Positions 21,675 to 56,520 of a stretch of 59,684 bases of DNA are shown in pieces. Position 1 is the first letter of the stretch. Each line of letters starts with the position of its first letter. The translations under genes were made by a program, and so were the position numbers. Below the pieces are notes generated by a model. It was not told the origin of the DNA, did no database searches, and saw nothing but the letters and a program-made list of their open reading frames with translations. Source of the DNA: an uncultured Bacteroidales bacterium (GTDB lineage: Bacteria > Bacteroidota > Bacteroidia > Bacteroidales > Paludibacteraceae); NCBI GenBank assembly GCA_900321005.1, contig ONUF01000022.1, positions 1 to 59,684 of the forward strand. Direction: 5' to 3'.

Positions 21675-21749
21675 GGCCGGTTGGATGAGCGACTTAGTCA
21701 GCGGTCTGCAAAACCGTTTAGAGCGGTTTGACTCCGCTACCGGCCTCCA
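21675..21749 (+). tRNA. tRNA-Cys, anticodon GCA, CCA encoded
   Basis: Acceptor GGCCGGT pairs with ACCGGCC, discriminator T, then an encoded CCA (21747-21749). Anticodon loop CTGCAAA gives GCA. It is the only tRNA of the window with genomic CCA. It is followed directly by a terminator hairpin and then sufB. Confidence 0.95.
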
Positions 21750-24862: not shown

Positions 24863-24884
24863 TTAACATCCCGCTGGGCTTGAC

Positions 24885-25186
24885 AGCATAAAAAAGCAAG
24901 GACGTCGCTTACCGACGTAAAACAGAAGGACAAGCGCAAGTGTACGCTACATAGATAAAATAAGCGTTTGCTTTATTTGAGGATTCTTTCAAACTTCGAC
25001 AACTTGATATAGTGTTCCAAGAATATAGCGAAACGCTCACGCAAACGCGTGGGCTTTCTGCATATATTGGATACTATGGGAGTCGAAGCCCGAAAGAACC
25101 AATAGCAGTTGGCTCACGTTTTTTTGTGTCGTATAAACTAATTAATTAAACCCGATGAGGCGATGGGATAACAGCCAACAAACGAA
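24885..25186 (+). ncRNA. Structured leader RNA (copy A) before the lipoprotein-deiminase genes
   Basis: No known RNA family recognised. A long imperfect hairpin spans 24984-25098: TTCTTTC (24984-24990) with GAAAGAA (25092-25098), CTTCGAC (24994-25000) with GTCGAAG (25082-25088), ATAGTGTTCCAA (25009-25020) with TTGGATACTAT (25067-25077), and an apical stem GCTCACGC (25035-25042) with GCGTGGGC (25047-25054). CGTTTG (24965-24970) can pair with CAAACG (25179-25184), three bases before the ATG at 25187. A second GCTCACG (25112-25118) followed by seven T could replace the apical strand and act as a terminator. Sequence and layout are shared with the leader at 53350-53736. Boundaries are approximate. 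Confidence 0.6.
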
Positions 25187-25489
25187 ATGAAAAAAACAAT
25201 TCTATGGTCTTTATTATTGTTCTTCACAATTCTCTATGGCTGTTCGCCTCGATTGGAAGGAACATACGTCTCAGACGAAAATCCTTTTTACAAGTCATTA
25301 ACATTTAAAGGAGAGAATACAGTTGTCGTCCGAGATGCTTTCTTTGGCATGGAGCATGTATCTGAATATGTTATTGACGACAACCTTATTCGTATTAAGG
25401 CGGAGCCATCAGATTTACTGTTTGAAATCATCTCAAGAGACACCTTAAGTGGCGAAGGATTTGCTGAAGGATTATATGTAAAAGAATAA
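25187..25489 (+). CDS. Small lipoprotein, unknown function
   Basis: A 100-residue protein with a lipoprotein signal peptide (MKKTILWSLLLFFTILYGCS; lipobox LYGC with Cys19). The mature part (LEGTYVSDENPFYKSLTFKG...) looks like a single small beta-rich domain, of the kind found in lipocalin-like or DUF-type lipoproteins, but I recognise no family. It begins directly after the leader RNA, whose outer stem reaches to within three bases of its ATG, and it is followed after four bases by the deiminase-like gene, so the two form an operon. The codon use is clearly AT-richer than that of the flanking housekeeping genes, suggesting acquisition. Confidence 0.72.
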   Translation: MKKTILWSLLLFFTILYGCSPRLEGTYVSDENPFYKSLTFKGENTVVVRDAFFGMEHVSEYVIDDNLIRIKAEPSDLLFEIISRDTLSGEGFAEGLYVKE

Positions 25490-25493
25490 CATT

Positions 25494-26753
25494 ATGACAA
25501 CAGAATCAATCATCGGAATTACCAGTGGTATACTTGGTATAGCAACCGTAATTTGGGGCGTTGCACGCTATTTTTACAATCGTTATAAAAAACAACCCTT
25601 GACTGACTTGTTCAAGCAACTAGTAGATACAAACAATTCCACCAAAGTACACCGCAAGATTTTAAGAAGAATCAATCTGCGCTTAGGAGGCATCATAAAA
25701 GACGATTATATACAGAATTTTGTGTTGGCGGATCGAAAAAAGGAAGCATTGTTTCAGGATATTTGCGTTAAGAATGAGATTGAGCCAAATAAAGAAATCT
25801 GCCTAAAACTATTAGGCGCAGATAGTCCCAAATCCAGGGATTATTACTATAGCCATCGAAAACAAGATGCTACGCAACAACCTCAGGAGAAGACGGTTTA
25901 TCCTTCGGCAACCAGCAATGAGGGACAAACTGTTTATATGTCTGAATTGTTGATGGATAGACATCCGCAAACATGTAAGAACTTACTTGCTATTCTTGAT
26001 AGGCATCATGTTAACTATGCATTTTTAAAAGGCACGAAAGATATTTGGTGTCGCGATTATATGCCAGTACAACTTGAATCGGGAAAGCTCATTCAGTTCA
26101 GATATGAGCCAAGTTATCTTAAGGGCAATAAAGAATGGGAAGAATCGCGTTCGAACGTAAAAGATGTTTGCAAGAAAAATAATATCAAAGCCGAAATCTC
26201 TGACATCAACCTTGATGGTGGTAATGTTTTAATTTGTGATGGTAGAGCTATCTTATCCGATAGAGTATTTGGAGAGAATCCCGAATACGACAAAGATACT
26301 CTTGTAAAGGAATTGGCGCAGTTATTAGAATGTGAAATTATTATCATTCCTTCGCTACGGTCAAAGGATGAAGATTTCACAGGGCATGCGGATGGCATGG
26401 TTAGATTTGTAAACAGAAATACAATCGTTGGCAACAATCGAGCAGAAGAATACAAATACTGGCAAGATGGCATAAAGAAAGTCTTGGACACCTATAATCT
26501 AACTTATATTGATATGCCATGTGTCATCAATAAAAAAGACCCAAAGCACCCAGATAGCGCAATAGGGATTTATGTCAATTACTTGGAAGTTAATGACTTG
26601 ATTGTTGTTCCTGAATTTGGTGTTAAGGAAGATAAAGAAGCGGTTGCTGTTCTTCAAAAAGCTTTCCCCGACAAACAAATTGAAACTATCAACTACAATG
26701 ATGTTGCATTAGAAGGCGGATTGCTAAATTGCACTACTTGGATTGTAAAATAG
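25494..26753 (+). CDS. Membrane-anchored agmatine/peptidylarginine deiminase-like enzyme
   Basis: A 419-residue protein. A single membrane helix (about 5-25) is followed by KK, so the rest should be cytoplasmic. A linker domain (about 38-125, with INLRLGGIIKDDYIQNFVLADRKK, key part IIKDDYIQNFVLAD) is not known to me. The C-terminal domain (about 145-419) has the guanidino-deiminase motifs: WCRDYMP (185-191), LDGGN (240-244), GHADGMVRF (His298, Asp300) and the nucleophile segment EGGLLNCTTW (Cys413). The residue before the cysteine is Asn412 where the family usually has His. Family members hydrolyse agmatine or arginine side chains. The anchored form and the accessory setting suggest a specialised, perhaps defensive, role; that is inference. 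Confidence 0.8.
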   Translation: MTTESIIGITSGILGIATVIWGVARYFYNRYKKQPLTDLFKQLVDTNNSTKVHRKILRRINLRLGGIIKDDYIQNFVLADRKKEALFQDICVKNEIEPNKEICLKLLGADSPKSRDYYYSHRKQDATQQPQEKTVYPSATSNEGQTVYMSELLMDRHPQTCKNLLAILDRHHVNYAFLKGTKDIWCRDYMPVQLESGKLIQFRYEPSYLKGNKEWEESRSNVKDVCKKNNIKAEISDINLDGGNVLICDGRAILSDRVFGENPEYDKDTLVKELAQLLECEIIIIPSLRSKDEDFTGHADGMVRFVNRNTIVGNNRAEEYKYWQDGIKKVLDTYNLTYIDMPCVINKKDPKHPDSAIGIYVNYLEVNDLIVVPEFGVKEDKEAVAVLQKAFPDKQIETINYNDVALEGGLLNCTTWIVK

Positions 26754-27620: not shown

Positions 27621-28655
27621 TTAGAAGTATTCTCTTACTGCAAATTCGTATTGATCAATGAAGATCCTTTTGAAGGCATGCAGATTATTCTGCTCGTAGA
27701 AAATCAGCATCGCTTTCTTATAATCAATTGAATCAACCGTGCGGAAGGATAAAGGACAATAGCCGTTCGCTATCAGCAACGCATTACTTGTGATACGCGC
27801 CGTGCGCTTATTTCCATCCATAAACGGCTGAATATAACTCAACAACAGGAGCGTCAGCAATGCTTTCTCAAATACATTGGTGCGGCTGTTAATCAACGCA
27901 CACGTATCACGCATCGCCTCGCGAATCTGAAACTCATTATCCAGCGGACGATATTTCGTACCCGTTATACCGACTCGTCTATGACGCAAGCCTGTGTCCA
28001 CAGATAGTTCTTTGGTCAGTAATTGATGAATATCCTCGATATGACTTATGGTCAACTCTTGTAAATAATCGGGATTATCCAATACAAACCGTAGCGCGTC
28101 TTTGTGATTTAGCAGCATTACCGCTTCCTCTTTGGTCTTACCCTCCGCGGTCTTGCTCTCGCGCAGCAACCGCTCTGTTTCAAGCAGCGAATACGTATTA
28201 CCCTCTATCTGCGAGGATTTCCAACTTAGGTCAATACCCAGCCGCTCCATCTCTTTGCGGTACTCATTCTCACTCATATCTGTCAAATGAGCACGAAACT
28301 CTTGCTGAAGTTCGTTGAGATGCTTCAACTCATCCTCTGTAAACAAAGCCACTTGCGGTAATTGCTCATTGATAAGCGCAAAGTTAAAACTCGTCTGTAC
28401 TTGACGGTCGTCCACATCTTGCGCAAAATAGGTATCCAAATCAAGCGGCATCAACAAGTGCGCACGGTTAGATAAGGAATAACGCGTCGCGCGCGCTTTC
28501 CCCGCTACATTTATATCACCATTCTCTATGCCGGCTGCAATAAGGCGTTTGAGCGTGGCATCACTCTCTTGAAAGCCAATACCTGCGCGAATGTCTTCAC
28601 GCGATGAAGACGGATGATAGTGCAAAAATTGCAGTATTTCACGAGCTGTTTCCAT
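27621..28655 (-). CDS. Fic-domain protein with Gln replacing the catalytic His
   Basis: A 344-residue protein: N-terminal winged-helix segment (about 1-65, with a helix-turn-helix look), a linker, the inhibitory motif SSQIEG (Ser147 to Gly152, the [S/T]xxxE[G/N] type, placed before the Fic core) and the Fic core. The active-site loop reads IQPFMDGNKRTAR: Gln276 stands where the family has the catalytic histidine (HxFx[D/E]GN[G/K]R). The codon is CAG. The nucleotide-binding Asp280, Gly281, Asn282, Lys283 and Arg284 are all present. Fic enzymes transfer AMP or other nucleotides to target proteins; loss of the histidine would abolish that, so this may be a binding-only or regulatory form. Confidence 0.85.
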   Translation of the reverse strand: METAREILQFLHYHPSSSREDIRAGIGFQESDATLKRLIAAGIENGDINVAGKARATRYSLSNRAHLLMPLDLDTYFAQDVDDRQVQTSFNFALINEQLPQVALFTEDELKHLNELQQEFRAHLTDMSENEYRKEMERLGIDLSWKSSQIEGNTYSLLETERLLRESKTAEGKTKEEAVMLLNHKDALRFVLDNPDYLQELTISHIEDIHQLLTKELSVDTGLRHRRVGITGTKYRPLDNEFQIREAMRDTCALINSRTNVFEKALLTLLLLSYIQPFMDGNKRTARITSNALLIANGYCPLSFRTVDSIDYKKAMLIFYEQNNLHAFKRIFIDQYEFAVREYF

Positions 28656-47141: not shown

Positions 47142-47238
47142 TTTGTACCTCCATGATTTAACAGGGTTCACTACCCCGTCCGCAAGAACCATGCCAAACT
47201 CAAAAATTCGCAAATATGTCCCAAAAACAACCGACACT

Positions 47239-47268
47239 CCGTCAGACCTTAGACGTTAAATGGGGTGA
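47239..47268. repeat. First copy of a 30-base direct repeat
   Basis: Identical to 53372-53401. The sequence begins CCGTCAGACCTTAGACG and ends AAATGGGGTGA. At the second site it is part of the leader RNA of the restriction-modification gene; here it is followed by a shortened, degraded version of the same leader (AGCAAACATA near 47280). Confidence 0.85.
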
Positions 47269-53310: not shown

Positions 53311-53342
53311 CTTGCGTATGTCATTTTTTTGTTGTACCTTTG
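53311..53342 (+). promoter_or_regulatory. Promoter of the second leader RNA and restriction-modification gene
   Basis: CTTG at 53311-53314, spacer CGTATGTCATTTTTTTGTTG, TACCTTTG at 53335-53342. An ATGACAT/ATGTCAT palindrome (53299-53323) overlaps the -33 element, as at 26949-27000. Confidence 0.72.
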
Positions 53343-53371
53343 CAGCCGCAAAGGTTTGAATAACCAATATA

Positions 53372-53401
53372 CCGTCAGACCTTAGACGTTAAATGGGGTG
53401 A
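53372..53401. repeat. Second copy of a 30-base direct repeat
   Basis: Identical to 47239-47268; lies in the 5' part of leader RNA copy B. Confidence 0.85.
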
Positions 53402-53656
53402 AGGAGTGCGATGAAACGCACTCCGAGTGAAGCGCCCGAGTAGTTCCCACTACGAGGAACAAGCGCAAACATAGAATAAAAGAGCGCAAACGTGCGCCAA
53501 ACTGAAAATATTAATTAGCGTTTGCTATTTATTCGAGAATTCTGAGAAATTTGGCCATTTTAAAGAACATCTTACATCGAATAAGTTCGAAACGCCTGCG
53601 CACAGCGTGGGTGGAACTTATGTAAGATGGGTTAGGCCAAATACCTTCAGATTCAT

Positions 53657-53677
53657 AAGCGAAGCCCTCGCTTTTTT
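53657..53677 (+). terminator. Terminator-like hairpin inside the leader
   Basis: AAGCGA, loop AGCCC, TCGCTT, then T-run to 53677. It lies between the long hairpin and the ATG of the restriction-modification gene, so it could end a short RNA or attenuate transcription. Confidence 0.7.
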
Positions 53678-53736
53678 GATATAGGTATTTGACTTTCCCG
53701 TCTCTCGATAGGTAGCGAACACAAACAAACGCTATC

Positions 53737-56520
53737 ATGACTCCTATACAGCAATCCAAAGCTGCCGCTGTGTTTGTGGCACATTGGACCGGCAAAGGTT
53801 ACGAAAAAGGCGAAAGCCAACTCTTCTGGACAACCCTTCTAAACCAAATCTTCGGCATCGAGCACCCGGAGCAGTTCATCGTCTTCGAGCAACAGGTGCA
53901 ACTCGACCACACCTCTTTTGTAGACGCACGTATCCCATCGACGAAAGTGATGATCGAGCAGAAATCGCTCGGCAAGAACCTTGGCGAAGGTATCAAGCAA
54001 TCCGACGGAAGTGTCCTCAATCCTTTCCAACAGGCGAAACGTTATGCCGACACGCTGCCCAACAGCCAGCGCCCGCGGTGGATTGTGACGTGTAACTTCG
54101 CAGAGTTCTGGGTCTATGACCTTGAGCACCCCAACGATGAGCCGCAGAAGATTCTCCTTGCCAATTTGGAGAAAGAGTACGAACGCCTGTCCTTCCTCGT
54201 CGAAGCCGGTAACGAACATATCAAACGCGAGATGGAAGTGTCCGTTAAAGCCGGACAGTTGGTAGGAAAGATCTACGACTTACTGCTCAAGCAATACCTT
54301 GAACCCGACGCACCCGAGACGCTCCGTTCGCTCAACATCCTCTGCGTACGTCTCGTGTTCTGTCTTTACGCCGAAGACGCGCACTTGTTCGGTAAGAAAA
54401 CCGCTTTCCACGATTACCTCGCGCAGTATCCCGCCAAGGAGATGCGCCGCGCGCTGATAGATCTCTTTGCTGTACTTGACACACCTGTAGCCGAACGCGA
54501 CCCCTATTTGGATGATGTCCTTAAAGCCTTCCCGTATGTCAACGGTGGTCTGTTTGGCAACGACACGCGATTGATCATCCCGCAGTTCACCGATGAACTC
54601 AAAAACCTCATCCTTAAGAATGCCTCCGACGATTTCGACTGGAGCGAGATTAGTCCTACCATCTTCGGTGCGGTCTTCGAATCAACCCTCAACCCCGAGA
54701 CGCGTCGCTCCGGCGGTATGCACTATACGAGTATCGAGAATATCCATAAAGTCATCGACCCGCTCTTTTTGGATGCCCTCAAAGATGAGTTCGAAGCCAT
54801 CAAAGCTATCGCCCAAGACAAACAGCAACGCCAGAAGCTCGATGCTTTCCAAGACAAACTCGCTTCTCTCACTTTTTTTGACCCTGCCTGCGGTTCTGGT
54901 AACTTCTTGACGGAGAGTTATGTGTCGCTGCGTCGCCTCGAAAACGAGATCATCGCCCTGCGCAACAAAGGTCAGGCGGTTATCGGTGAGTTCGCTAATC
55001 CCGTCAAGGTCGATATTCACCAGTTCTACGGCATTGAGATCAACGACTTCGCGGTCTCGGTAGCCACGACAGCCCTTTGGATTGCCGAGCAACAAATGCT
55101 CCAAGAGACAGCCCGTCTCGTGCAGTTTACCATCGAACCCTTGCCGCTGAAAGCCTACCATAACATCCACGAAGGCAATGCCTTGCGTGTTGACTGGTCT
55201 GAAGTGATCGCTCCGGAGAAGCTCCACTACATCATGGGTAACCCGCCGTTTGTAGGCGCTCGCCTAATGGCACAAGAGCAAAAGGATGATTTACTGGATA
55301 TCTTCGGCAAGAAATGGAAGAATCTCGGCAACATGGATTATGTCTGCGGTTGGTATCTCAAATCGGCGCAAATGATAGCCTCCAATCCCGCAATCCATGC
55401 CGCGCTCGTTTCTACCAATTCCATCACTCAAGGCGAACAAGTCGCTAACCTCTGGAAGCCGCTCTTTGAGCAATACGGCATCCAATTTGACTTTGCCTAT
55501 CGTACCTTCCGATGGGATTCAGAAGCCGACATAAAAGCGCACGTCCATTGCGTCATCATTGGCTTTTCTTCTTTGTCAAGTGCTTCGGGCGTCAGACCGA
55601 AGAGAATCTACATCTCCGATCTCCAGTCCATCCCCGCCAAAAACATTAACGGCTATCTCCTTGATGCGCCTGATATGTGGATACAATCCCGTACAGTTCC
55701 TCTTGCTGATGTTCCCGAGATGGTATTTGGCAGTATGGCTAATGATAGCGGAAATTTGATTTTATCATCAGAAGAAAGAGATGAGTATGTAAGTAAATAT
55801 CCTCAAATAGAGCCATATATTAAATCGTTCTTAGGAGCAGAAGAGTTTATCAATAACAAGAGCCGTTATTGTCTGTGGTTAGTCGATTGCCCACCTTCAG
55901 TATTGCGAACGTGCCCGCATGTTATGGATCGCGTAGCCAAAGTGAGGGATGCGCGTGCCGCAAGCACTCGCCCCGGTACTCGTAAAATGGCTGATTATCC
56001 GACATTATTCGGCGAAAATCGTCAGCCGGAGAGCAATTATCTATTAGTGCCCCGTGTGTCTTCTGAAAAACGTCGTTATGTACCAATGGGGTTCCTATCG
56101 CCAGATATTATTGCGAGTGATGCTGTCCAAATCATCCCCAATGCCTCTCTCTATCATTTCGGCGTTCTTACCTCCAACGTCCACATGGCGTGGATGCGCG
56201 TGGTCTGTGGCCGTCTCGAAATGCGGTACCGCTACTCAAAGGATATAGTTTATAATAACTTCCCGTGGCCGACACCTACCGACGAACAAAAAGCCCGCAT
56301 TGAGGCTACCGCCCAAGCTATTTTGGATGCCCGTGCCAAATATCCGGATTGCTCTTTGGCTGACCTTTACGATGAAGTCACCATGCCGCCCGAACTCCGC
56401 AAAGCCCACCAGGACAATGACCGTGCAGTCATGCAAGCCTACAGCTTTGTGCCCGGCAAAACATCCGAATCGGAATGTGTCGCCCGCCTCTTTGAGATAT
56501 ATCAAGAATTGACCAAATAA
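53737..56520 (+). CDS. Single-chain type IIG/IIL (MmeI-like) restriction-modification enzyme
   Basis: A 927-residue enzyme, close to the length of MmeI. Domains in order: nuclease (about 1-160) with a PD-ExK site, Asp63 and Glu74-Gln75-Lys76 (FVDARIP, MIEQKS); helical spacer (about 160-330); N6-adenine methyltransferase domain with motif I DPACGSGNFL (382-391) and motif IV NPPF (502-505); and a C-terminal target-recognition domain (about 600-860). It would methylate one strand of a short site and cut when the site is unmodified. No separate methyltransferase gene is needed. The ATG at 53737 follows leader RNA copy B. Active-site residues look intact. Confidence 0.93.
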   Translation: MTPIQQSKAAAVFVAHWTGKGYEKGESQLFWTTLLNQIFGIEHPEQFIVFEQQVQLDHTSFVDARIPSTKVMIEQKSLGKNLGEGIKQSDGSVLNPFQQAKRYADTLPNSQRPRWIVTCNFAEFWVYDLEHPNDEPQKILLANLEKEYERLSFLVEAGNEHIKREMEVSVKAGQLVGKIYDLLLKQYLEPDAPETLRSLNILCVRLVFCLYAEDAHLFGKKTAFHDYLAQYPAKEMRRALIDLFAVLDTPVAERDPYLDDVLKAFPYVNGGLFGNDTRLIIPQFTDELKNLILKNASDDFDWSEISPTIFGAVFESTLNPETRRSGGMHYTSIENIHKVIDPLFLDALKDEFEAIKAIAQDKQQRQKLDAFQDKLASLTFFDPACGSGNFLTESYVSLRRLENEIIALRNKGQAVIGEFANPVKVDIHQFYGIEINDFAVSVATTALWIAEQQMLQETARLVQFTIEPLPLKAYHNIHEGNALRVDWSEVIAPEKLHYIMGNPPFVGARLMAQEQKDDLLDIFGKKWKNLGNMDYVCGWYLKSAQMIASNPAIHAALVSTNSITQGEQVANLWKPLFEQYGIQFDFAYRTFRWDSEADIKAHVHCVIIGFSSLSSASGVRPKRIYISDLQSIPAKNINGYLLDAPDMWIQSRTVPLADVPEMVFGSMANDSGNLILSSEERDEYVSKYPQIEPYIKSFLGAEEFINNKSRYCLWLVDCPPSVLRTCPHVMDRVAKVRDARAASTRPGTRKMADYPTLFGENRQPESNYLLVPRVSSEKRRYVPMGFLSPDIIASDAVQIIPNASLYHFGVLTSNVHMAWMRVVCGRLEMRYRYSKDIVYNNFPWPTPTDEQKARIEATAQAILDARAKYPDCSLADLYDEVTMPPELRKAHQDNDRAVMQAYSFVPGKTSESECVARLFEIYQELTK

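Follow-up and report, generated by a model that had tools for sequence, protein, structure and literature searches.

What relates the two structured segments that precede two different accessory genes on one contig of an uncultured Bacteroidales bacterium, and what could such leaders do for the genes behind them? The window, by which we mean the whole stretch of DNA analysed here (59,684 nucleotides), corresponds to positions 1..59,684 of contig ONUF01000022.1 in the Paludibacteraceae assembly GCA_900321005.1. A first-pass annotation had pointed out two segments, herein copy A and copy B, that share a series of short words, and all of the words listed are present in both: ACATAGA(A)TAAAA, AAGCGCAA, AGCGTTTGCT, GAG(A/G)ATTCT, the pair GAAACGC...GCGTGGG, and CAAACG. 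The last was said to lie two to three bases before the start codon, which is the case in copy A (two bases), but in copy B it ends five bases before the ATG. The two segments can be aligned with each other, and the folding energy of each lies below that of 100/100 shuffles (z of -4.8 for copy A and -5.9 for copy B). The conserved core runs from 53516 to 53677 in copy B and from 24962 to 25125 in copy A, on the plus strand like all other features of the leaders and of the genes they lead, and the shared word AAGCGCAA is not part of this core but lies upstream of it, in the 5' modules.

A leader family and its reach

Relatives of the two copies were sought with a covariance model, R2, whose seed of 37 diverse leaders (alignment A2) includes copy B and excludes copy A. 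Its structure was set by hand from a column-pair scan; RNAalifold structures on MAFFT alignments, together with the model R1, missed most of the long hairpin described below. Within the window, R2 recovers copy B (124.2 bits, E 8.2e-32), which is one of its seeds, and copy A (64.5 bits, E 7.3e-16), which is not, and nothing besides these two at E<=1. The window's own genome contains 18 matching places at E<0.01, 11 of them above 35 bits and seven below. With this genome counted, matches were found in at least 95 of 247 genomes of the order and at least 23 of 247 genomes of the phylum (at least 88/247 and at least 21/247 at E<=1e-6), all of which are lower bounds because only 11 or 24 candidates were scored per genome. 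This is the wider covariance-model search that had been suggested in the first-pass annotation, made here with the 37-leader seed, and the homologues that it returned have covarying stems. A sample of 120 genomes from the phylum of an Alteromonadales record, composed without a positive genome, gave no match (0/120). Five genomes chosen for a chance occurrence of the strand-1 pattern, three of them titled as other phyla, gave R2 matches only at that place, with 23-33 bits, and R2 matches below about 35 bits therefore need care.

An exact 5'-element pattern, run against public genomes, gave at least 116 stretches, which RNA folding separates into 98 full-length leaders and a remainder that are unfolded chance matches or incomplete at an end; these 98 belong to the pattern-leader set (n=104) used below. 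For 65 of the 98, titles are available among the matches listed, and all are Bacteroidales, Bacteroidia, or families and genera therein. Viral contigs gave seven pattern matches, none a clear leader by folding energy and one (L163) at most a truncated leader. By blastn, the copy B region has matches in 25 of 61 genomes (own genome included), many of them to the upstream modules only. The results support the view that copies A and B are members of a large family of leader RNAs in front of accessory genes.

That the family of structured leaders stands outside Rfam, as the first-pass annotation had also supposed, is borne out by three scans: the window has no core match at the gathering threshold nor at E<=0.5, the few matches to copies A and B at E<=5 are all far below threshold, and 20 related loci gave no family match at E<=0.1. 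We reject membership in any Rfam family on these grounds. GP20-a and GP20-b (RF02991 and RF03003) have a weak likeness to the upstream pseudoknot modules only, with the core unmatched (24.4 bits for copy A against a gathering score of 47.2, and 14.4 against 36.2 for copy B). The covariance models of 6S RNA, which had been named as a family whose match would point to a different role, found nothing in the window (gathering threshold and E<=0.5), the two copies, or the 20 related loci; like 6S RNA the leaders have a long hairpin with internal loops, but unlike it they occupy 18 places (E<0.01) in one genome, most of them ahead of a gene. Riboswitches and protein-binding leaders are similar in that terminator/antiterminator logic would reside in a 5' leader with many gene targets. 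The family differs from riboswitches in that known aptamer families have no match in the window, in either copy (E<=5) or in the 20 related loci (E<=0.1), and in that its gene targets have no obvious common pathway. One RNA-discovery paper reportedly lists many candidate RNAs, and an earlier listing of the present family in a paper on candidate motifs is possible, but no description of it was found in the accessible portions of the literature searched. Specifically, it is not described in the available parts of PMC2864571, PMC8040213, PMC9723704, and PMC7366714, of which PMC9723704, in the part available, reports structured 5' elements without Rfam matches in Flavobacterium. The family is apparently unnamed.

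Four strands and three coevolving helices

Each core is made up of four successive strands. In copy B these are strand 1 (alpha, 53516..53535); strand 2, the 5' side of the long hairpin with P1, P2, P3, P4/beta, and the apex (53537..53601); strand 3, the 3' side of that hairpin (53604..53653); and strand 4 with the T-run, a terminator strand that is a partial second copy of strand 2 (53654..53677). Strand 1 was placed by the column-pair scan, the R2 match, and strand-swap tests, and the other three by covariation and strand swaps. In copy A, the R2 match and strand swaps define strands 1 (alpha, 24962..24979), 2 (24981..25042), and 3 (25046..25098), and strand 4 with its T-run (CCAATAGCAGTTGGCTCACGTTTTTTT, 25099..25125) forms a duplex of -22.8 kcal/mol with the beginning of strand 3. 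The leaders fall into two subtypes, an R-M type to which copy B belongs and a broad type to which copy A belongs.

The column-pair scan of A2, which is blind to structure, has as its top six helices P2, P1, the apex, the 3' part of the apex with the terminator strand (3:4), alpha with beta (1:2), and P4, and the same six rank first in 54 broad leaders that were not picked by the strand-1 pattern, in an alignment made with R2. For the long hairpin 2:3, 95.4% of cells are paired among 95 distinct sequences, a percentage that is favoured because R2 holds this hairpin and the alignment (A5) was made with it. Double changes occur in 29/29 of its pairs and in 630 cells versus 158.8 in shuffles, G-U pairs also keep the pairing, and with the partners slid by one to three columns the paired fraction is 31-42%. 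Helices 1:2 and 3:4 are not contained in R2. Pairing in 3:4 is 86.5% versus 80.2% when shuffled, with 87 versus 25.4 double-change cells, and in 1:2 it is 89.4% versus 87.3%, with 29 versus 10.3 such cells. In the strand-swap tests the own pairing was better than the mean swap for 2:3 in 56/57 broad and 41/41 R-M type leaders, for 3:4 in 55/57 and 40/41, and for 1:2 in 40/45 and 35/41, where 12 of the 57 broad rows, those without strand 1, were left out. All three helices, 1:2, 2:3, and 3:4, coevolve, with 1:2 the weakest of them. It should be noted that strand 1 looks overly constant because nearly all of the 37 seeds were collected with a strand-1 pattern, and that for three leaders of the own genome (L176, L178, and L180) the match begins at position 25 of R2, which leaves their strand 1 unrecognised.

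Since strand 4 coevolves with strand 3 in both subtypes, the competing terminator that had been proposed for copy A is supported and is general. The two-state switch proposed for copy B finds support in alternative helices that coevolve, but the GCAAACG with which it was to operate there does not belong to the architecture that is conserved. The column-pair scan gives AGCGTTTGC another, conserved alternative partner, the basal GnAAACG of the apical stem. The words shared by the two copies are short, as they would be if the copies were chance resemblances or simple repeats without function, but that reading is hardly credible next to the R2 matches in the window, order, and phylum, the covariation of 2:3, and the position of the genes behind the leaders (119/148, see below). 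A chance origin was rejected on the separation by folding, the R2 scores, the covariation, and the model-free controls.

A proposed strand-exchange switch

We now put forward a mechanism in which the family consists of cis-acting leader RNAs that attenuate transcription by strand exchange, and to which the subtype of copy B adds a translational lock. Judged from sequence comparisons, this reading has in our estimate a probability of about 0.6. The RNA would usually start at a promoter some 40-120 nt upstream, and strand 1 would pair with part of strand 2 (alpha with beta), so that 1:2 acts as an anti-antiterminator. Strand 3, on leaving the polymerase, would displace strand 1 and form the long hairpin 2:3, the putative antiterminator. 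Strand 4 is a partial repeat of strand 2 that leads into the T-run; by pairing with strand 3 it could give 3:4, a candidate intrinsic terminator, and the T-run would then terminate transcription. A factor acting in trans (protein, RNA, or small molecule) would tip the balance between these states; which of them is on is something that we infer. In the subtype of copy B, strand 3 or strand 1 would in addition cover strand 2' at the start codon, and translation would be locked too. The duplex energies in copy A are -48.6 kcal/mol for 2:3, -14.9 for 1:2, and -22.8 for 3:4, and as 2:3 is much stronger than the other two, termination would have to rely on folding kinetics or on a factor. The loop of the 3:4 hairpin is, by eye, about 30 nt, which is long for an intrinsic terminator.

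Both ends of the proposed transcript have sequence signals. TAnnTTTG, which we take to be the Bacteroidota -7 promoter consensus, is present in the 160 nt ahead of 107 of 163 leaders, with 14.2 expected and 5/162 found in control windows. Copy B has the -7 element TACCTTTG of a Bacteroidota-type promoter at 53335..53342 (sequence and position checked), 181 nt before strand 1 and hence beyond the 160-nt scan because of an inserted module, and its RNA would start near 53348; the 160 nt ahead of copy A contain no TAnnTTTG. At the other end, five or more T's close 80 of 95 model matches versus 1 of 162 control windows, a figure that is favoured by R2 because the model contains the T-run. In the model-free count, runs of at least five T's are found at positions 140-185 in 73/104 pattern leaders and at positions 50-95 in 0/104. 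The upstream promoter motif and the strand-specific T-run, together with the G-U pairs that keep the long hairpin paired, speak for an RNA and against an element that acts as DNA, for example a recombination site or the end of a mobile element that brings accessory genes. The downstream genes are indeed largely accessory and of many families, as such an element would have it, but blastn of copy B found no second full-length copy in its own genome and no phage or plasmid record, and we consider the DNA-level explanation very improbable; a mobile-element end was rejected from these blastn results, which concern copy B.

In its proposed form the attenuator resembles that of trp-type operons, with four ordered strands, the helices 1:2, 2:3, and 3:4, and a T-run after strand 4, all ahead of a gene. 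It is unlike these in that strand 4 repeats part of strand 2, in that the R-M type adds strand 2', and in that the genes found are not those of amino-acid biosynthesis. Moreover, trp-type attenuators use a leader peptide, of which the present leaders have no sign, as ATG ORFs of 5-40 codons that end at strand 1 are depleted (12/163 leaders versus 33 in shuffles). This depletion argues against ribosome-controlled attenuation, and control by a leader peptide with an ATG start was rejected.

In 119/148 leaders an ORF of at least 80 aa begins on the leader's strand no more than 150 nt downstream, compared with 17/148 at the mirror position; several of the phylum matches (L226-L230) have no gene start close by. 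The gene position argues for action in cis and therefore against a reading in which the terminated leader is a trans-acting small RNA that acts on the mRNA starts of its own and sister genes, with the downstream gene as first target. A promoter motif, a structure, and a T-run are what an independent RNA would have, strand 3 matches strand 2' of the own gene, and a genome can carry many copies (18 at E<0.01 in that of the window). Nevertheless, the pairing prefers the own leader over swapped ones, which again points to cis, and we regard a trans-acting small RNA as quite improbable.

The two subtypes of the attenuator that we favour differ in what follows the T-run. In R-M type leaders strand 2 is repeated once more between the T-run and the start codon, and in copy B this strand 2' (53678..53736) ends at the start codon and pairs with strand 3 at -36.1 and with strand 1 at -17.3 kcal/mol. 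Strand 2' pairs with much of strand 3 in this subtype, at -35.4 kcal/mol for the own versus -22.5 for swapped strands, and the own pairing is better in 56 of 58 leaders (a non-redundant subset of 62) and, in a second cut, better than the mean swap in 34/41. Strand 1 pairs with the region after the T-run at -20.2 versus -11.7 kcal/mol when shuffled, better than shuffled in 58/58; it is better than swapped in only 40/58, and 26/40 in another cut, because strand 1 hardly varies. R-M type leaders also have a local terminator hairpin (positions 135-145 with 154-164), which competes with the long hairpin because it shares part of the 3' strand of P1; in copy A, by contrast, the strand of the T-run has its partner in strand 3. 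Among broad leaders the own pairing of strand 3 with the region after the T-run was better in only 24/57, so that there is no strand-2' pairing, and that of strand 1 in only 22/45, which leaves start-site pairing unsupported in this subtype. The outer stem that the first-pass annotation had drawn over the translation start is, accordingly, possible in the subtype of copy B and unsupported in the broad one. The start-site pairings of the R-M type are also what would be seen if the leader were mainly a translational operator, with little termination at the T-run and with strands 1 and 3 hiding the region of the start codon. The broad subtype, copy A included, counts against this, having no start-site pairing and yet keeping strand 4 and mostly the T-run, and we consider a mainly translational operator rather unlikely.

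The genes behind the leaders and the modules ahead of them

Copy B leads the gene of an MmeI-type type IIG restriction enzyme-methyltransferase of 927 aa (53737..56520), recognised by the Pfam domains MmeI_N, hel, Mtase, TRD, and C and by PADLOC, and copy A leads a putative lipoprotein of 100 aa (25187..25489; read from its N-terminus, no Pfam match) that is followed by a member of the Porphyromonas-type peptidyl-arginine deiminase family (25494..26753; PAD_porph, E 2.9e-31). These are the MmeI-like enzyme and the lipoprotein-deiminase operon of the first-pass annotation, but to speak of two unrelated accessory genes understates the pattern. The strand-1 pattern was the main source of a set of leaders with 85 proteins behind them, and eight sequence clusters assigned to DNA methyltransferases or R-M enzymes hold 62 of these. 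Five of the clusters were assigned through Pfam matches of one or more members, the other three (EcoRI-type, C5, and D12) through tallies and reading, and PADLOC tallies agree with the assignment. The 85 (set A3, out of 106 ORFs) contain close relatives and are not independent; ORFs with a start outside offset 180-260 or shorter than 60 aa were left out, and some of these are also methyltransferase-like. The remaining proteins of the 85 are eight small HTH proteins (HTH_3 in six by tally) and 15 mixed singletons. The ORFs that follow in the eight HTH-led operons were read and are not obviously R-M genes. Two of these leaders, L080 and L141, stand ahead of small LQSRREFFKK... peptides, and a neighbouring protein of L141 has a CxxxCxxC motif that we assume to be radical-SAM-like, which suggests that the two may be peptide-modification operons. 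Near the copy A operon, 27621-28655 on the minus strand encodes a Fic/DOC-family protein.

A different set of 64 proteins, behind leaders found by the model in the own genome, order, and phylum, has the T9SS sorting domain in four, BspA leucine-rich repeats in three, the TonB plug in three, CarbopepD_reg_2 in three, and R-M families in one or two each, in a ranking of the first 25 of 76 Pfam families. A crude signal-peptide test, which has no background control, was positive for 10/17 proteins of the own genome, 14/28 of the order, and 12/19 of the phylum, and for 5/30 behind other, mostly pattern-found leaders; exported proteins are frequent behind leaders of the broad subtype. In the gut and the rumen, many communities are dominated by Bacteroidota, and to our knowledge the control of their many surface and R-M genes is poorly known. 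A phylum-spanning family of leaders with strongly covarying helices, no match in Rfam, a readable switch architecture, and clear targets makes this control directly testable, and a leader that locks the genes of methyltransferases and restriction enzymes at the transcriptional as well as the translational level would bear on the safe entry of such systems into new hosts. More tentatively, and with more doubt than confidence, we suggest that a Bacteroidota-wide strand-displacement switch, assembled from duplicated strands (1-2-3-4, with 2' added in one subtype), could place surface, secreted, and R-M genes under one trans-acting signal, i.e., in a single regulon.

The 5' regions ahead of the cores contain further structure. 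In copy B an H-type pseudoknot module (53373..53400) has the form CGTC-loop-GACG, with ACCTTA of the loop pairing with TGGGGT, and a separate repeated module of 85 bp within the 5' UTR (53397..53481) is multi-copy in relatives by blastn, with nine matches in one relative genome (G014). The latter consists by eye of two hairpins, the second pseudoknot-like, and stands alone in relatives. Copy A has a pseudoknot-like module of the CGCTG type (24872..24903, by eye), which the pattern missed because CAGCA replaces CAGCG, and one of the CGTC type (24903..24931) recognised by pattern match and loop pairing. Across the own genome the two hairpin patterns give 20 matches (13 and 7) compared with 5 and 1 for reversed-pattern controls, and 13 of the 20 are followed within 150 nt by an R2 match at E<0.01 (12 leaders). 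When loops were swapped between modules, the own loop paired better with the strand behind it than swapped ones did on average in 20 of 26 distinct stretches (sister loci and recurring loop sequences among them), which suggests that the modules are H-type pseudoknots. An orphan upstream pseudoknot (CGTCAGACCTTAGACGTTAAATGGGGT) is present at 47226-47268 with no R2 match after it. Elsewhere in the window, a long near-palindrome at 21564-21668 matches a microRNA model below threshold on both strands, presumably by shape only, and adjoins a tRNA-Sec match, also below threshold, at 21675-21745. Finally, the region after copy A (25126-25186) has before the start codon a conserved stretch like AAACCGATGGGGCGATGGGATATAACAGCCAA, as do L005, L031, and L176, and in L213, L217, and L220, elsewhere in the class, there then follows CACTTTGGGTTTGAGTG...AAACC-TATG or a like sequence, which may form a second pseudoknot directly at the start codon.
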